Positions 1-12,297 of a stretch of 23,223 nucleotides of DNA are shown here, one piece after another. Position 1 is the stretch's first letter; every line of letters begins with the position of its first letter. The notes under the pieces are model-generated. The model had not been told where the DNA came from. It made no database searches and worked only from the letters and a program-made list of their open reading frames with translations. This DNA is from a virus. The position numbers and the translations under genes were made by a program. The DNA is taken from positions 1 to 23,223 of the IMG/VR virus record IMGVR_UViG_3300022929_000222; one strand, 5' to 3'.

Positions 1-687
1 TTCTAGTCCGCTAACATCAATTGTTTGTCCGTCACTGGCAATAATTGCCTGCGAAATATCAGGGTCAATAAGATCGCCAACTGCTTGAATTGCTCCACCT
101 GCAAGAGCACCAACTGCACCAGTTTTAATTGATTTACCAACTGCTGTTGCAAGTTCTTTACCTTGTAAAATATCTTTTGTGGCTCTTGCCAAGAAACCTG
201 CTACAGCACCACCAAGTGGTCCGCCTGCCATAGCCGCCGCTGATGTTAGAATAGCAACCGCTACTGTTGCTTTTCCTGGATTTGCTTTTGCCCAATCGCT
301 TACTGCTTTTACAGCACCTACTACTTTTGAATCTTTGTCGCCAATTTTCTGTTTAAGTTCATTAAACTTGGCATCCATATTTTGCACTGGTCCTGCTTTT
401 TTAATAGCAGCACCAAGGTCATCAATCTTTTTGTTTATTGCACTTGCTACGTTGCCAACAGCATCAGCACCTTTACCTATTGCTGTTCTATTAGAACCTG
501 CTGCTGTTGCGCCTTGTTCAATACTTGTAAATAAATTTTTAATTTGGTCTGCTGAAAGATTTGCTTCAGTAACTATTTTTTCAACATCAGATACCCAAGG
601 CTGGATTACCTTTTGTTCTAGCAATAGCATATCAGGATCGTTCCATCCTTCAGTAATATATCTTTTTTGTAATTGTTCTAATCTCAT
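1..687 (-). CDS. Probable capsid-internal (protease-processed) protein, partial at left edge
   Basis: An open frame of 229 codons on the minus strand starts at ATG 687-685 and is still open at base 1, so the C-terminus is missing. It starts one base after the stop of the upstream gene, so the two are probably co-translated. The N-terminus reads MRLEQLQKRYITE|G. Residues 11-14 (I-T-E|G) match the (I/L)xE|(A/G) consensus cut by the T4 prohead protease gp21, and the leader resembles the capsid-targeting leaders of T4 internal proteins. Residues about 40-130 are helical and Ala/Lys/Asp-rich. Residues about 140-167 are a hydrophobic Ala/Gly stretch that could cross or disturb a membrane, and similar Ala/Gly-rich sequence follows. 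I do not recognise a named family. A packaged protein ejected with the DNA is inference from the leader and the neighbour; another virion role is possible. Confidence 0.7.
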   Translation of the reverse strand, partial: MRLEQLQKRYITEGWNDPDMLLLEQKVIQPWVSDVEKIVTEANLSADQIKNLFTSIEQGATAAGSNRTAIGKGADAVGNVASAINKKIDDLGAAIKKAGPVQNMDAKFNELKQKIGDKDSKVVGAVKAVSDWAKANPGKATVAVAILTSAAAMAGGPLGGAVAGFLARATKDILQGKELATAVGKSIKTGAVGALAGGAIQAVGDLIDPDISQAIIASDGQTIDVSGLE

Positions 688-688
688 T

Positions 689-1567
689 TTATAACATCTT
701 TAATAATTTTTGTTTGTCACCTGTACGCAGTGTGGCAATTTGTTTTTGTATTTCCGGAGGTACGTCTGTACCTTTAAATGCATCTGCTGCTGATTGTGCA
801 GCACCCTTGGCTCCGCCTTGCTGTGCATCTTGAGGAGCAACTCCTGTTCCTGCATCTGCTTGTCCACCTTCATCACGTGCAATTGCATTTCTTACTGCTG
901 CCATGAATATACTATCTAATTGCTTATCTGACAAAGTAACAGCAGCATCTTCTAATATAAAGTTTGCTTCACTCCAATCTATAGATTGATTTACTGCCTG
1001 TTTGTTTTGTTCGCTAGGTGGAACTATTTTTTTCTTAGCACCTTTAATTGCTAAATTGTTATCTGGATTACCTTCAGGTTGTTTCTGTGTAGTATTCTGT
1101 GCAGGTTTTTGTGCATTAGGATCAGCATTCTGTGCAGGTTTTTGTGCATTAGGATCAGCAACAGCATCTTTAGCACCAGCAACAGCACCTTTAGTAACAT
1201 CTGCTACACCTTTACCTACTGCTTTGGTAGCATCAACTGCTCCTTTTGCTGCTTTGCCAGCAGCCGCGCCAATTTTTTGTCCTGTAGTCATCTTGGACAT
1301 TTCTTGTTCTGCATCACCTGTAGGATAATTGTTTTTTCTTAAAAAATCTATTACTATCTGTGGTGTAGCATCTTTGCCTATTTTACCAAGATGTACGTTA
1401 AATTGCTTTTTTAGCCAGTTGGCTTCTTTGCCTACTTCTAAATTACCCTTGGCTTTATCACCAGTTGTGCCTGGCACGAAAGATTTTGCTCTATCTTTCA
1501 GACGTGATAAGAAGCCTTGCGGTGCTTCATCGAGCTGTTTTTCTATCAGAATTTCGTTTAAACGCAT
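689..1567 (-). CDS. Probable capsid-internal protein with Ala/Lys repeat region
   Basis: 292 codons, ATG at 1567-1565, stop at 691-689. The N-terminus MRLNEILIEKQLDE|A shares the MRL opening of the downstream gene. It has an L-D-E|A site at residues 12-15 that fits the gp21 prohead protease consensus, with a weaker L-I-E|K at residues 7-10. Residues about 96-137 are a run of Gly/Ala/Lys/Val helix-type repeats, similar in character to LEA or histone-H1-like tails. Next come two exact copies of an 11-residue unit (NADPNAQKPAQ type), a Gln/Pro/Asn linker, and a conserved-looking C-terminal segment of about 100 residues. The strong Lys content of the middle would suit DNA contact. It is the first gene after the 1568-2060 non-coding region and lies 31 bases from an AATAAATA late-promoter motif. 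No named homologue recognised; the internal-protein role is inference. Confidence 0.75.
   Translation of the reverse strand: MRLNEILIEKQLDEAPQGFLSRLKDRAKSFVPGTTGDKAKGNLEVGKEANWLKKQFNVHLGKIGKDATPQIVIDFLRKNNYPTGDAEQEMSKMTTGQKIGAAAGKAAKGAVDATKAVGKGVADVTKGAVAGAKDAVADPNAQKPAQNADPNAQKPAQNTTQKQPEGNPDNNLAIKGAKKKIVPPSEQNKQAVNQSIDWSEANFILEDAAVTLSDKQLDSIFMAAVRNAIARDEGGQADAGTGVAPQDAQQGGAKGAAQSAADAFKGTDVPPEIQKQIATLRTGDKQKLLKML
1094..1159 (-). repeat. 33-bp tandem duplication inside the internal-protein gene
   Basis: Two identical, directly adjacent 33-base units (1094-1126 and 1127-1159) encode two copies of an 11-residue Asn/Ala/Asp/Pro/Gln/Lys unit. Perfect identity at third codon positions points to a recent in-frame duplication of a disordered linker, for instance by slippage. 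Confidence 0.95.
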
Positions 1568-1597: not shown

Positions 1598-1605
1598 TAT
1601 TTATT
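1598..1605 (-). promoter_or_regulatory. Late-promoter-like octamer AATAAATA
   Basis: On the minus strand AATAAATA lies 30 bases upstream of the ATG at 1567. It differs from the T4 late -10 element TATAAATA at one position. The identical octamer occurs in both orientations in front of gp55 and gp48, which supports its use by the phage's gp55 sigma factor. No -35 element is expected for this promoter class. Confidence 0.55.
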
Positions 1606-1638: not shown

Positions 1639-1670
1639 TGCGTTTTCGCTAACGCTCAACGCATTTTTTT
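1638..1670 (+). terminator. Rho-independent terminator-like hairpin reading rightwards
   Basis: ATGCGTT (1638-1644) pairs with AACGCAT (1658-1664) around a 13-base loop, followed by seven T on the plus strand (1664-1670). This is a standard intrinsic-terminator layout for plus-strand transcription. No plus-strand gene lies to its left, only minus-strand genes, so it may stop antisense transcription. Read on the minus strand it is not followed by a T run. Confidence 0.6.
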
Positions 1671-2060
1671 CTCTTATACATTATATATGTGATTACAACA
1701 ATTACGAAGTAATTTTGTTAGCATCATGTAGATAGTAGAGCCACAATTCGCCCGTTGCCGGACGAATTGGTTTGTTGAGCTTCATGTGAGTTAGCGTCAC
1801 CAACCTGTTAAAGAAGATTACATATAATATGTGCGGAGGCGGCAGACCGTCAACCCCCTACTTCAGCATTCGCAATATCCGCGGAAAGCAGTTAATCCCT
1901 AACAGTCGAAATTACTTGCTTTGTGGTTGTATCTTTTTTACAGAGCCACATCTTTTATGCCTGTAGTTAGCATTATCCTTGCAACGCACCAGTATCTGAT
2001 CACACGAGTAGTGTGACCTCAAGGTGAGTCGAGGTACCCCGACCAAACTGTGTTGCTATG
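1671..2060. other. Non-coding, GC-raised region with multiple stem-loops (candidate structured RNA)
   Basis: No gene-sized frame is present on either strand. By hand count, 1741-1920 is about 47% GC and 1981-2040 is 55%, while flanking coding lines run near 20-35%. Stem-loops seen: 1700-1714 (AATTAC/GTAATT, GAA loop); 1744-1769 (CAATTCG/CGAATTG with an inner CCG/CGG); 1820-1832 (ACATA/TATGT); GCGGA 1833-1837 with TCCGC 1878-1882; 1922-1950 (TGTGG/CCACA); and 2000-2016 (TCACAC/GTGTGA). A TGCTAAC/CGCTAAC-type heptamer recurs on the minus strand. I could not fit a tRNA, tmRNA, RNase P RNA or group I intron core. It lies downstream of the GIY-YIG gene and upstream of the internal-protein genes on the minus strand. 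Candidates are a small RNA, a long leader, an origin or a degraded gene. Confidence 0.5.
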
Positions 2061-6416: not shown

Positions 6417-6427
6417 TATTTATTATA
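6417..6427 (-). promoter_or_regulatory. Promoter candidate for gp55 (AATAAATA overlapping TATAAT)
   Basis: On the minus strand TATAAT (6427-6422) overlaps AATAAATA (6424-6417), just upstream of the gp55 ribosome site. No good -35 lies 17 bases upstream (TTATTT). Either host sigma or gp55 itself could use it; the latter would give positive feedback. Confidence 0.5.
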
Positions 6428-6490: not shown

Positions 6491-7642
6491 ATGGCATTAT
6501 CAGTTAATCCGGTATCGCAGTTAGTACAAAAAGTGGATTCAGAAGTCAGTGCTGCACTAGAAGCAGTAGAGACAGGCGTGCCTAAAATAGGCAACGCTTT
6601 AGAAAAAGCAAAACTAGATGCTAAACTAGCTCAACTAGGCGGAGACCTAGGTAGTGGTCTCAACATGGCCACAGCAACTGGCAGCGAACTTTTAGAAAAT
6701 GTTACTACTGGAATGGGTAGTGTTGTCAATAATAATCTTGGAGGAGGACTGCCAGATAATCTTGCAGGAATAGATGGAGCAGCAGAGGCTGTAGGTAATT
6801 TTGGAAGTCTTGTAGGCGATACTGTAAAAGACTTTGGAAACGCTGGTGTTGGTAATGAAATAAGTTCACTTGCAAGTAAATTTACAGGAGGCAATCTAGC
6901 AGGCGGTGCCCAAGCAATAGCAGGTAAAATTGCAGAGGCTGCAGGTGCACTGAATGATTTTTTAAGTTTGAAACGTGGTGCTGGTCTTCCTAAGGGAGGA
7001 GAATTGTTCCAGACGTCAGGTGCAGGCATAGAAGTCTTGCCACAGACAGGGGCAGATTGGAGAGTAAGAATTGCATGTGATTGGAGTTTGTTTCCAGGTA
7101 ATCCACAGTTTGAATTATTACAAAAGTCTCAAGGCGCTGTATTTCCTATTTTACCTGATATTACTTTTTCAACAAAAGCAAATTATACACAAATTGATCC
7201 TATACATAATAACTATCCCTTCCAAGCCTATAAAAATTCACAGATTGATGAAATAATGATTTCTGGTACGTTTATAGTAGAAGATGAAACTCAAGCAGCA
7301 TACTGGATAGCAATGACAACTTTCTTTAAGACAATGACAAAAATGTTTTTCGGTCAAGGTGCAAATGTAGGTGCACCACCGCCAGTATGTAGATTAACAG
7401 GTTATGGTGCAAGTGTATTTGATAACGTTCCTGTTGTTGTTAAGTCTTTCTCAGTTGACCTAAGCAGTGATGTGCAATACAAACGTTGTAATGCTTTTGG
7501 AACAAATACTTGGGTACCAATTGAAAGTTCCGTTAATGTAACTGTACAACCAGTTTACAACAGAAGAAATTTAAGGCAGTTTAGTTTAACAGATTATGCC
7601 AAAGGCAATCTAAAGACACCGTCAGGTAAAGGTTACTTATAA
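6491..7642 (+). CDS. gp48: Baseplate tail-tube cap protein gp48
   Basis: 383 residues. In T4, gp48 sits on the baseplate hub and starts tail-tube assembly. The N-terminal half (about residues 1-175) is Ala/Gly/Leu-rich with few aromatic residues and looks helical or flexible. The C-terminal half is the conserved core: W-R-V-R-I near residue 192; F-P-I-L-P; Y-P-F-Q-A-Y-K-N-S-Q; a Y-W-I-A-M-T-T-F-F-K-T-M-T-K-M helix; then P-P-P-V-C-R-L-T-G-Y-G and N-V-P-V-V-V-K-S-F. This core is the type annotated as gp48 in marine T4-like phages; I see little direct likeness to T4 gp48 itself. The length is similar (T4 about 364). The stop overlaps the next start as TAATG. First gene of the late operon. Confidence 0.8.
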   Translation: MALSVNPVSQLVQKVDSEVSAALEAVETGVPKIGNALEKAKLDAKLAQLGGDLGSGLNMATATGSELLENVTTGMGSVVNNNLGGGLPDNLAGIDGAAEAVGNFGSLVGDTVKDFGNAGVGNEISSLASKFTGGNLAGGAQAIAGKIAEAAGALNDFLSLKRGAGLPKGGELFQTSGAGIEVLPQTGADWRVRIACDWSLFPGNPQFELLQKSQGAVFPILPDITFSTKANYTQIDPIHNNYPFQAYKNSQIDEIMISGTFIVEDETQAAYWIAMTTFFKTMTKMFFGQGANVGAPPPVCRLTGYGASVFDNVPVVVKSFSVDLSSDVQYKRCNAFGTNTWVPIESSVNVTVQPVYNRRNLRQFSLTDYAKGNLKTPSGKGYL

Positions 7643-10504: not shown

Positions 10505-12297
10505 TGGCAATACAAAGAAGAAAACCTGCCGGTGAAACACGCGGTGTAAATTTAGGATCAGGAGTTTACCTTGCAAAAGTTGTGAGTGTAATGGATCCTT
10601 CATTTAACGGTCGACTGCGTGTGACTTTATTAAAATCACAAGGTAATGACATAGGCGCTGACAACCAAACTTACACCGTTAATTACGCATCGCCTTTCTT
10701 TGGATATACTCCTTTTCCGGCAATGGGCAAAAACAACGAAGACTTTAACGATACACAAAAATCATATGGAATGTGGTTTGTTCCACCTGATGTAGGTGTC
10801 ACTGTTATGTGTGTATTTGTTGACGGCAATCCAGGAGAAGGTTATTGGTTTGCTTGCCTACCACCAAACTTTGCCAACAACATGGTTCCGGCAATAGCAG
10901 GTTCTACCGAAGTAGCGTTAACTGATGCAGATAAGAAAAAGTTTGATACTAAACAGCCACTTCCAGTAGGAGAAATTAATAAAAGATTTAATCAAGAAGC
11001 AGCAGAAAAAGATCCAGATAAAATTAAAAAACCTGTTCATCCTATAGCAGATAGATTTCTTGAACAAGGAACACTCGAAGATGATGTTAGAGGCGTAACA
11101 ACAACTTCGGCAAGAAGACAAACACCAAATGCTGCCTTTGGTATTTCTACTCCAGGTCCGTTAGATTGGAGAGACGGAAGCAAAAGAATGACCACAGGAC
11201 CTACCGACAATCAATCACTTACTCCTGTTGCAGTAAGTAGGCTAGGCGGCACACAATTTGTCATGGACGACGGTGACGATAGATATGTTAGGCAGACCAC
11301 AGCAGACAAAGGACCTGTCAAATATATTGATGTGATTGAGAAAAGATTTGCTGATGCAGAAAATGCACCAACTAATGAAAAAGGCGAGCCAACTGTACCT
11401 TACAATGAATATGCTAGAATAAGAACAAGAACCGGACACCAACTTCTTTTACATAATTCAGAAGATTTAATTTACATAGGAAACAGTAAAGGCACAGCAT
11501 GGGTAGAATTAACTTCTAATGGTAAAATAGATATCTATGCAGCAGACAGTATAAGTGTACACACAGAAAACGATTTGAATATAAAAGCAGACAGAGACGT
11601 TAATATTGAAGCAGGAAGAAATATAAACATGAAAGCCACTGCCGAATATGTTTCTGACAAAGAATTGCATAGAAGGGACGAAGAAGGAAATCCTATACCT
11701 AAAATACAAGATGGTAACGAATACGAAGCAGGTAGAATTCAAATAGAAAGTGCATTCAATACTAACATATTGATAGGTGCAAATGGTAAGATAGAAACTA
11801 GAACTTATAAAAATAAAGATGATGTAGATGTAAATGGCTCACTAGATATTAGTGTAGTAGGATCGACTAAAATTTCTACAGGTTACGGAGTAGTTGCACC
11901 TCATGATTTTGAACTTAAAGTATTTGGTGATACACTTGTTAAAACAACTGGTAACTTAGATTTAAATACAGATGGAAATAATGCTTACACAGCAGGCGGA
12001 ACTACTGATATTTTAAGTGGCGGCAACCATACTGAGACAGCAGCAGAAATTCATATGAACGGACCAGAGGCTAGACAAGCAGAAGAGGCTAGACAAGCAG
12101 CAACTATTGCAGCATTACATCTTCATACAACTTTGTTTACAAATCCAGATGTTGGATGGCCTAAATTGAAGTATAATGATGGAACTATTAAAACAATTAT
12201 GAAACGTGTACCAATGCATGAACCTTGGCCGTTACATGAAAATAATTCACCTGCGTTACAAAATGTAACATTTACAGACAGGGAACTTGAGGAGTAG
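10504..12297 (+). CDS. gp5: Baseplate hub/spike protein gp5, no visible lysozyme domain
   Basis: 597 residues, starting in a TAATG overlap with GGAG ten bases upstream. In T4, gp5 is the central spike that punctures the outer membrane. Residues about 20-125 form the OB-fold: V-Y-L-A-K-V, F-N-G-R-L-R-V and a G-V-T-V-M-C-V-F-V-D-G-N-P-G-E-G-Y-W block. A polar linker spans about 130-240. A VgrG-like segment (about 245-330) includes L-G-G-T-Q-F-V-M-D-D-G-D and R-T-G-H-Q-L-L-L-H. It is followed by a repetitive triple-beta-helix region with I-D-I-Y-A, D-L-N-I-K-A, D-V-N-I-E-A and N-I-N-M-K-A repeats. The C-terminus has a helix with a duplicated E-A-R-Q-A and an H-E-P-W-P-L-H-E-N motif. The T4 lysozyme insert between OB-fold and helix is not recognisable. 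Similar length to T4 gp5 (575) comes from the longer linker and helix. Confidence 0.9.
   Translation: MAIQRRKPAGETRGVNLGSGVYLAKVVSVMDPSFNGRLRVTLLKSQGNDIGADNQTYTVNYASPFFGYTPFPAMGKNNEDFNDTQKSYGMWFVPPDVGVTVMCVFVDGNPGEGYWFACLPPNFANNMVPAIAGSTEVALTDADKKKFDTKQPLPVGEINKRFNQEAAEKDPDKIKKPVHPIADRFLEQGTLEDDVRGVTTTSARRQTPNAAFGISTPGPLDWRDGSKRMTTGPTDNQSLTPVAVSRLGGTQFVMDDGDDRYVRQTTADKGPVKYIDVIEKRFADAENAPTNEKGEPTVPYNEYARIRTRTGHQLLLHNSEDLIYIGNSKGTAWVELTSNGKIDIYAADSISVHTENDLNIKADRDVNIEAGRNINMKATAEYVSDKELHRRDEEGNPIPKIQDGNEYEAGRIQIESAFNTNILIGANGKIETRTYKNKDDVDVNGSLDISVVGSTKISTGYGVVAPHDFELKVFGDTLVKTTGNLDLNTDGNNAYTAGGTTDILSGGNHTETAAEIHMNGPEARQAEEARQAATIAALHLHTTLFTNPDVGWPKLKYNDGTIKTIMKRVPMHEPWPLHENNSPALQNVTFTDRELEE
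12066..12100 (+). repeat. 17-bp direct repeat in gp5
   Basis: Two identical 17-base copies (12066-12082 and 12084-12100) with an 18-base period encode the repeated E-A-R-Q-A(-E) heptad-like unit near the gp5 C-terminus. A small, recent in-frame duplication. Confidence 0.85.

Follow-up and report, generated by a model that had tools for sequence, protein, structure and literature searches.

The two genes that adjoin at the left end of the window, which we call A and B, probably encode late head proteins with a capsid-targeting-like leader that would be cut by a gp21-type protease, and may act as prohead-core or internal proteins. By the window we mean the whole stretch analysed, the 23,223-base record IMGVR_UViG_3300022929_000222 of a T4-like phage of an uncultured marine group, whose DNA gave no match among 50,697 phage records. 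Both genes are on the minus strand, and the features of the locus are given below, with an arrow marking each predicted cut.

1..687, minus strand: gene B, of which the N-terminal 229 aa are present (contig end); relatives have about 600-1,073 aa.
565..648, minus strand: predicted piece of B that follows the leader, residues 14-41, with VTE↓A at its end; E41 in 27/27 relatives, followed by A in 26/27.
649..687, minus strand: leader of B, residues 1-13 (MRLEQLQKRYITE↓G); (I/L)xE↓(G/S) in 26/27 aligned relatives.
689..1567, minus strand: gene A, 292 aa, basic (pI 9.2), predicted gp21-processed head-core or internal protein with IMG/VR homologs and distant Rak2-like jumbo phage homologs.
1526..1567, minus strand: leader of A, residues 1-14 (MRLNEILIEKQLDE↓A); E14 invariant in 25/25.
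1541-1567, minus strand: alternative or first cut of A after E9, residues 1-9; E9 in 22/25.
1598..1605, minus strand: -10 element of a T4-type late promoter, AATAAATA, lying about 36 nt before the ATG of A.
About 1640-2056, minus strand: structured RNA of about 400 nt, between a GIY-YIG-like gene (2061-2510) and gene A.

The preliminary description had both genes starting with MRL and reaching (I/L)xE↓(G/A) within 15 residues, and this was found to be exact when the translations were read: the N-terminus of A is MRLNEILIEKQLDE↓APQGF, containing L12-D13-E14↓A15, and that of B is MRLEQLQKRYITE↓GWNDP, containing I11-T12-E13↓G14. MRL starts are rare (7/827 genes of the related records). Such a motif in one sequence is weak on its own, [IL]xE[AGS] standing near the N-terminus in 56/827 genes of six related records against 29 expected, and two neighbouring MRL starts add little proof. 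For A, IMG/VR yielded 13 loci with relatives; for B it yielded 88, of which 80 were kept. Twenty-seven B proteins were aligned, down to 28% identity to the first. Their leaders vary in length from 13 to 29 residues, yet all end as described above except one, which reads LTE↓Q (1/27). At least two [ILV]xE↓[AGS] sites are present in the first 45 residues of 26 of the 27 proteins, one branch having them at 13 and 41, the other at 17-19 and, as a rule, again seven residues further on. Along B, the conserved sites are concentrated near the N-terminus and at about residues 570-640, which would leave pieces of several hundred residues. B is probably a large precursor that is cut several times.

Among 25 relatives of A, the leader start M(R/K)(L/I/V/F) is kept and P3 of E14 is L or I, with V in 2/25. 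The P1' residue after E14 is A in 12, R in 8 and K in 5, and the next one is usually Pro, while E9 has I, L or V at its P3 in 20/25. Since P1' is A, R or K and the earlier (I/L/V)xE at residue 9 is conserved, the exact cut position in A, E9 or E14, is uncertain. The LDE↓A site first proposed for A was sustained as a motif with an invariant Glu, but weakened as a precise cut by R or K at P1' in 13/25 relatives and by the second site at residue 9. The bodies of the two proteins are Ala/Lys-rich, as had been described, their Ala+Lys content reaching the 99.7th percentile for A and the 98.8th for B among 579 proteins of related phages. The most conserved stretch of B (SDWAKANPGKA...ILT.AAA..GGP.GG, residues about 131-168) is hydrophobic and Gly-rich, with KD up to 1.96; it is borderline for a membrane span and, as a speculation, leaves room for a delivery role.

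The leaders are found far beyond chance. In the six related records, M(R/K)(hydrophobic)x(D/E/N/Q)(hydrophobic)..E was observed at 12/827 gene starts against 3/4,416 internal Met (P = 6e-8; this P value and the next are descriptive, as the relatives are not independent and counts overstate the number of events). When 762 proteins from the six records were ranked blindly by their excess of [IL]xE[AGS] over shuffles, the top entries included gp22, gp23 and a protein with an MKTF leader, and three of the B proteins were also among them. Site-like conserved Glu columns amount to 62/1,005 (6%) over 96 ortholog groups, to 3/8 in B (Fisher P = 0.01 against the overall 6%), to 7/40 in gp22 and to 4/22 in gp23. 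Because the leaders are conserved across divergent relatives and the leader pattern is enriched at N-termini, chance alone was rejected as their source.

Peptidase_S77, the gp21-type prohead protease, was detected in 15/25 related, mostly partial records (8/11 and 7/14), and gp23 in 8/11. The window itself, a 23-kb fragment, contains no Peptidase_S77 gene; gp21 does occur on two contigs with a B that shares 99% and 96% identity, respectively, with that of the window. In the large related records the gene order is A, B, portal, gp21, gp22, gp23, where portal, gp22 and others are named from sequence and position. T4 gp21 cuts after L/I-X-E, and core proteins are cut into several pieces (PMC9026906). 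As in gp21 substrates, the P1 residue is Glu with L or I at P3 in 26/27 B leaders and at E14 in 25/25 A proteins (V at P3 in 2), and the gp23 cleavage site in the related records reads YL(S/N/A)E↓S. Processing of the leaders by a gp21-type prohead protease, as suggested at the outset, is supported by the conserved sites, by the encoded protease and by the site excess shared with gp22 and gp23.

A late-promoter-like element, as had been noticed upstream of the pair, lies at 1605-1598 on the minus strand. Sites of the AATAAATA type number 3 in the window against 18 expected from shuffles. The late element lies 29-46 nt upstream of A in five of the six large related records and upstream of B in the sixth, and the motif NATAAATA stands upstream of 38/43 A ORFs. 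In one related record NATAAATA is depleted (25 sites against 85 expected), and most of the sites that remain immediately precede a gene (25 sites, 20 genes). By this motif, A and B may be transcribed late. Among 32 distinct loci, nearly all have an ORF with an A-type leader end immediately before B; 2 of these are cut by a contig edge, some are too divergent for BLAST and 1 record has a different order. Together with the promoter before A, this agrees with the two-gene late cassette proposed earlier, and it points to the pair as a conserved core feature with a fixed position in this phage group rather than a variable weapon. Elsewhere in the window, divergent late-promoter-like elements were observed at 6424 (minus strand) and 6446 (plus strand), one preceding the gene at 6491 and the other a minus-strand gene whose product resembles gp55, so that this putative late sigma factor may itself be under the control of a late promoter.

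The preliminary description had also called for a search for similar leaders on other proteins; they were found on unrelated late proteins of related records, but within the window only A and B carry the pattern. A protein of related records starting with MKTF(K/R)(E/D)YL(A/T)E↓S falls in phrog_14802 'virion structural protein'. Its relatives in PA5oct and CBB were found in virions by mass spectrometry (CBB: PMC5259590), and the phrog_14802-like protein of PA5oct is marked ESI-MS/MS. Presence in virions is thus established for this type of protein, which neighbours the A relative in jumbo phages, whereas A and B are predicted virion proteins. A nucleotidyltransferase in L112 (6250-6960, minus strand) and in L160-L173 has the leader MRINDLLxE and a late promoter usually 12 nt upstream; its leader consensus is MRI(N/K/T)(D/E)L(L/I)xE. 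It matches Pfam NTP_transf_2 just under the cut-off and phrog_36119, and could be a candidate packaged enzyme reminiscent of T4 Alt. The N-termini of cyanophage nucleotidyltransferases are shorter and different (MKKL(L/I)SEL). In L133, a cytidylyltransferase-like protein (PF01467; 9384-10001, plus strand) has the leader MRINEIFLTE↓D, and a 96-aa protein, MKLNELFNAIEQNKKRMESATAGATASGNIA (11796-12083, plus strand), has an MKLNELF leader followed by a copy of the gp23 post-cut sequence, ESATAGATxxGN(V/I)A, so that the sequence after the gp23 maturation site of the same phages recurs in it.

Neither the Pfam scan, with nothing over the cut-off, nor the PHROG scan, with no match better than E 0.02, assigned A or B to a family, and B, including full-length B, had no match among the isolated phages of INPHARED. 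The PDB sequence search and Foldseek with both structure models gave no match for either protein, the models being of low confidence (pLDDT 58.8 and 54.5). The only distant jumbo phage match was that of A, over residues 1-76, to a protein of Vibrio phage 2.275.O in INPHARED (E 2e-3). This relative belongs over its whole length to phrog_16152 (E 8e-25), which is present in Rak2-like jumbo phages (CBB_211, 121Q gp558 and RaK2 ORF048). Members of phrog_16152 share with A an (L/M)xE leader end and a similar C-terminal helix, and their neighbourhood is also alike: the gene before them encodes a phrog_14802 protein, and the one after them a larger protein whose Trp-rich modules look like portions of B; in contrast, they are shorter than A, at about 180 aa, and have R, D or A after the leader Glu. 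In the jumbo phages the relatives of A are flanked by the sheath and head-completion (gp4) genes on one side and by an ATPase gene on the other. CBB_211 and 121Q gp558 are labelled structural protein, but for CBB_211 this label was not counted as proteomic evidence, since the mass-spectrometry table of CBB contains CBB_210 (60.5% coverage), 213 and 214 while 211 and 212 are absent (PMC5259590). Members of phrog_16152 in NC_019526, NC_027364 and others carry the annotation 'Hsp70 heat shock protein', apparently an error copied from record to record; we did not believe this label, the Vibrio phage relative having no Pfam match.

The T4 record gives MKTYQEFIAE↓A as the start of IPII and IPIII, so that the ten-residue IPIII leader used earlier for comparison is right, and IPI begins MKTFKEFTSTTTPVSTITE↓A, with a leader ending ITE. 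T4 internal proteins have leaders of 10-19 residues, of which ten suffice for targeting, and are described as basic (PMC9026906). A and B resemble IPI, IPII and IPIII in their short leader with an MK/MR start and an (I/L)xE end before a small residue, in their late promoter and, for A, in the basic body; the 19-residue IPI leader ends in ITE exactly as that of B. The leader of A and B is nevertheless of the form MR(L/I)xx(I/L) and not MKTYQEF, and their bodies have no detectable similarity to those of the internal proteins, the Pfam, PHROG and INPHARED searches having revealed no similarity to IPI, IPII, IPIII or Alt. Moreover, B is much larger, with several conserved sites, and the A-B pair is conserved and syntenic whereas the T4 set is variable. 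The core proteins gp22, gp67 and gp68 of T4 are alike in having several (I/L)xE sites per protein and a place near gp21, but A and B, with their Ala/Lys-rich composition, bear no similarity to them; the related phages moreover possess a gp22-like gene in addition to A and B, with an acidic gene occupying the gp67/68 position. In the giant phages SPN3US and phiKZ, head propeptides occur and one precursor is cut several times by the prohead protease (PMC10052503). Such serial cutting is what the predicted scheme of B would involve, but the SPN3US motif is AxE and no homology of A or B was found.

The sites, the leaders and the late promoter motif are sequence evidence, from which we infer cleavage of A and B and their presence in proheads or virions. 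In the explanation we prefer, the A and B precursors would be synthesized late and, by analogy with T4, brought into the prohead core by the N-terminal leader. The gp21-type protease would then remove the leaders after (I/L)xE, and B would be cut again, probably more than once. Afterwards the mature pieces would either remain in the head or make up the core, and they may exit together with the DNA. Against this explanation stand the P1' residues of A, which are R or K in about half of its relatives, unlike the A/G/S/T of gp23 and B, the CBB virion table, from which the A relative CBB_211 and its neighbour CBB_212 are missing (PMC5259590), the failure of the searches to reveal any similarity to IPI, IPII, IPIII or Alt, the low confidence of the structure models and the non-independence of the relatives.

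The preferred explanation includes two sub-cases, which differ in the fate of the mature pieces. A and B may be scaffold-like core proteins, as T4 gp67/gp68 are, which would be cut up and largely expelled before packaging with nothing ejected, and we regard this as a real possibility, although short of an even chance. The absence of CBB_211 and CBB_212 from the virion table would be in accordance with such a fate, as would the several sites per B protein, the gp22-like site excess, the position near gp21-gp22-gp23, and the conservation and fixed gene order; however, the clustering of the B sites would leave pieces of several hundred residues, and A is basic, as T4 internal proteins are. In the other sub-case A and B would be DNA-ejected effectors for anti-defence or host takeover, comparable to T4 IPI and Alt, which we consider unlikely even though the leader type and the basic A agree with it and other leader carriers are enzymes (the nucleotidyltransferase and the cytidylyltransferase-like protein), reminiscent of Alt. 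No effector domain was detected in A or B by Pfam, PHROGs, PDB sequence or fold search, with models of low confidence, and both are syntenic core genes over wide divergence, not hypervariable ones. Anti-defence genes of the T4 IP type are variable accessories. The conservation and fixed order of A and B over wide divergence therefore suggest a role in core assembly or delivery rather than hypervariable anti-defence, and the ejection with DNA and the anti-defence or takeover role that the preliminary description had put forward do not follow from the leader, the cut sites and the cassette.

Outside the preferred explanation, the leaders may stay uncut, A and B being neck, tail or membrane-linked assembly proteins in which (I/L)xE is kept for another reason. 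The position of the jumbo phage A relatives between the sheath and head-completion (gp4) genes and the ATPase gene is consistent with this, as is the hydrophobic, Gly-rich character of the most conserved B stretch. Nevertheless, the sites end leaders of variable length, they are serial and enriched at the N-terminus, and the site excess is common to B, gp22 and gp23, so that we find uncut leaders quite improbable.

Upstream of A, the existence of a structured RNA is well supported. Over 347 nt the element shares 87% identity with that of a relative, the B proteins of the two being only about 36% identical. Its consensus fold, built from 15 sequences, has 80 pairs with 96% of cells paired, and compensatory double changes were observed at 31 pairs, compared with 4-6 after sliding the partners by 1-3 columns. 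Rfam contains nothing for this RNA of about 400 nt, and blastn against INPHARED gave no match. A conserved 24-mer of it was found in at least 119 IMG/VR stretches and in 0/84,980 bacterial and archaeal genomes. Of 48 distinct instances, 45 have an A-like leader gene after the RNA, and of 44 with enough flank, 43 have a GIY-YIG-like gene before it. The RNA and A-B might form one functional unit, in which a prohead RNA for packaging, core assembly or delivery would work alongside A and B, the latter being cut serially and inserting its hydrophobic, Gly-rich segment into the host membrane on ejection. The fixed gene order (45/48) is the one observation from which a functional link is drawn, and we hold this unit to be very doubtful.

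Altogether, these results would add an uncultured marine T4-like group to the phages with capsid-targeting leaders as described for T4, and in this group the leader-bearing pair appears as a conserved core feature and not as a variable anti-defence set. The A-B locus also leads to a previously unlisted large structured phage RNA. Finally, packaged proteins could be listed by a sequence rule, an N-terminal M(R/K)(L/I)xx(I/L)...(I/L)xE that is frequently accompanied by a late promoter, and such a list would take in the leader-bearing nucleotidyltransferase.
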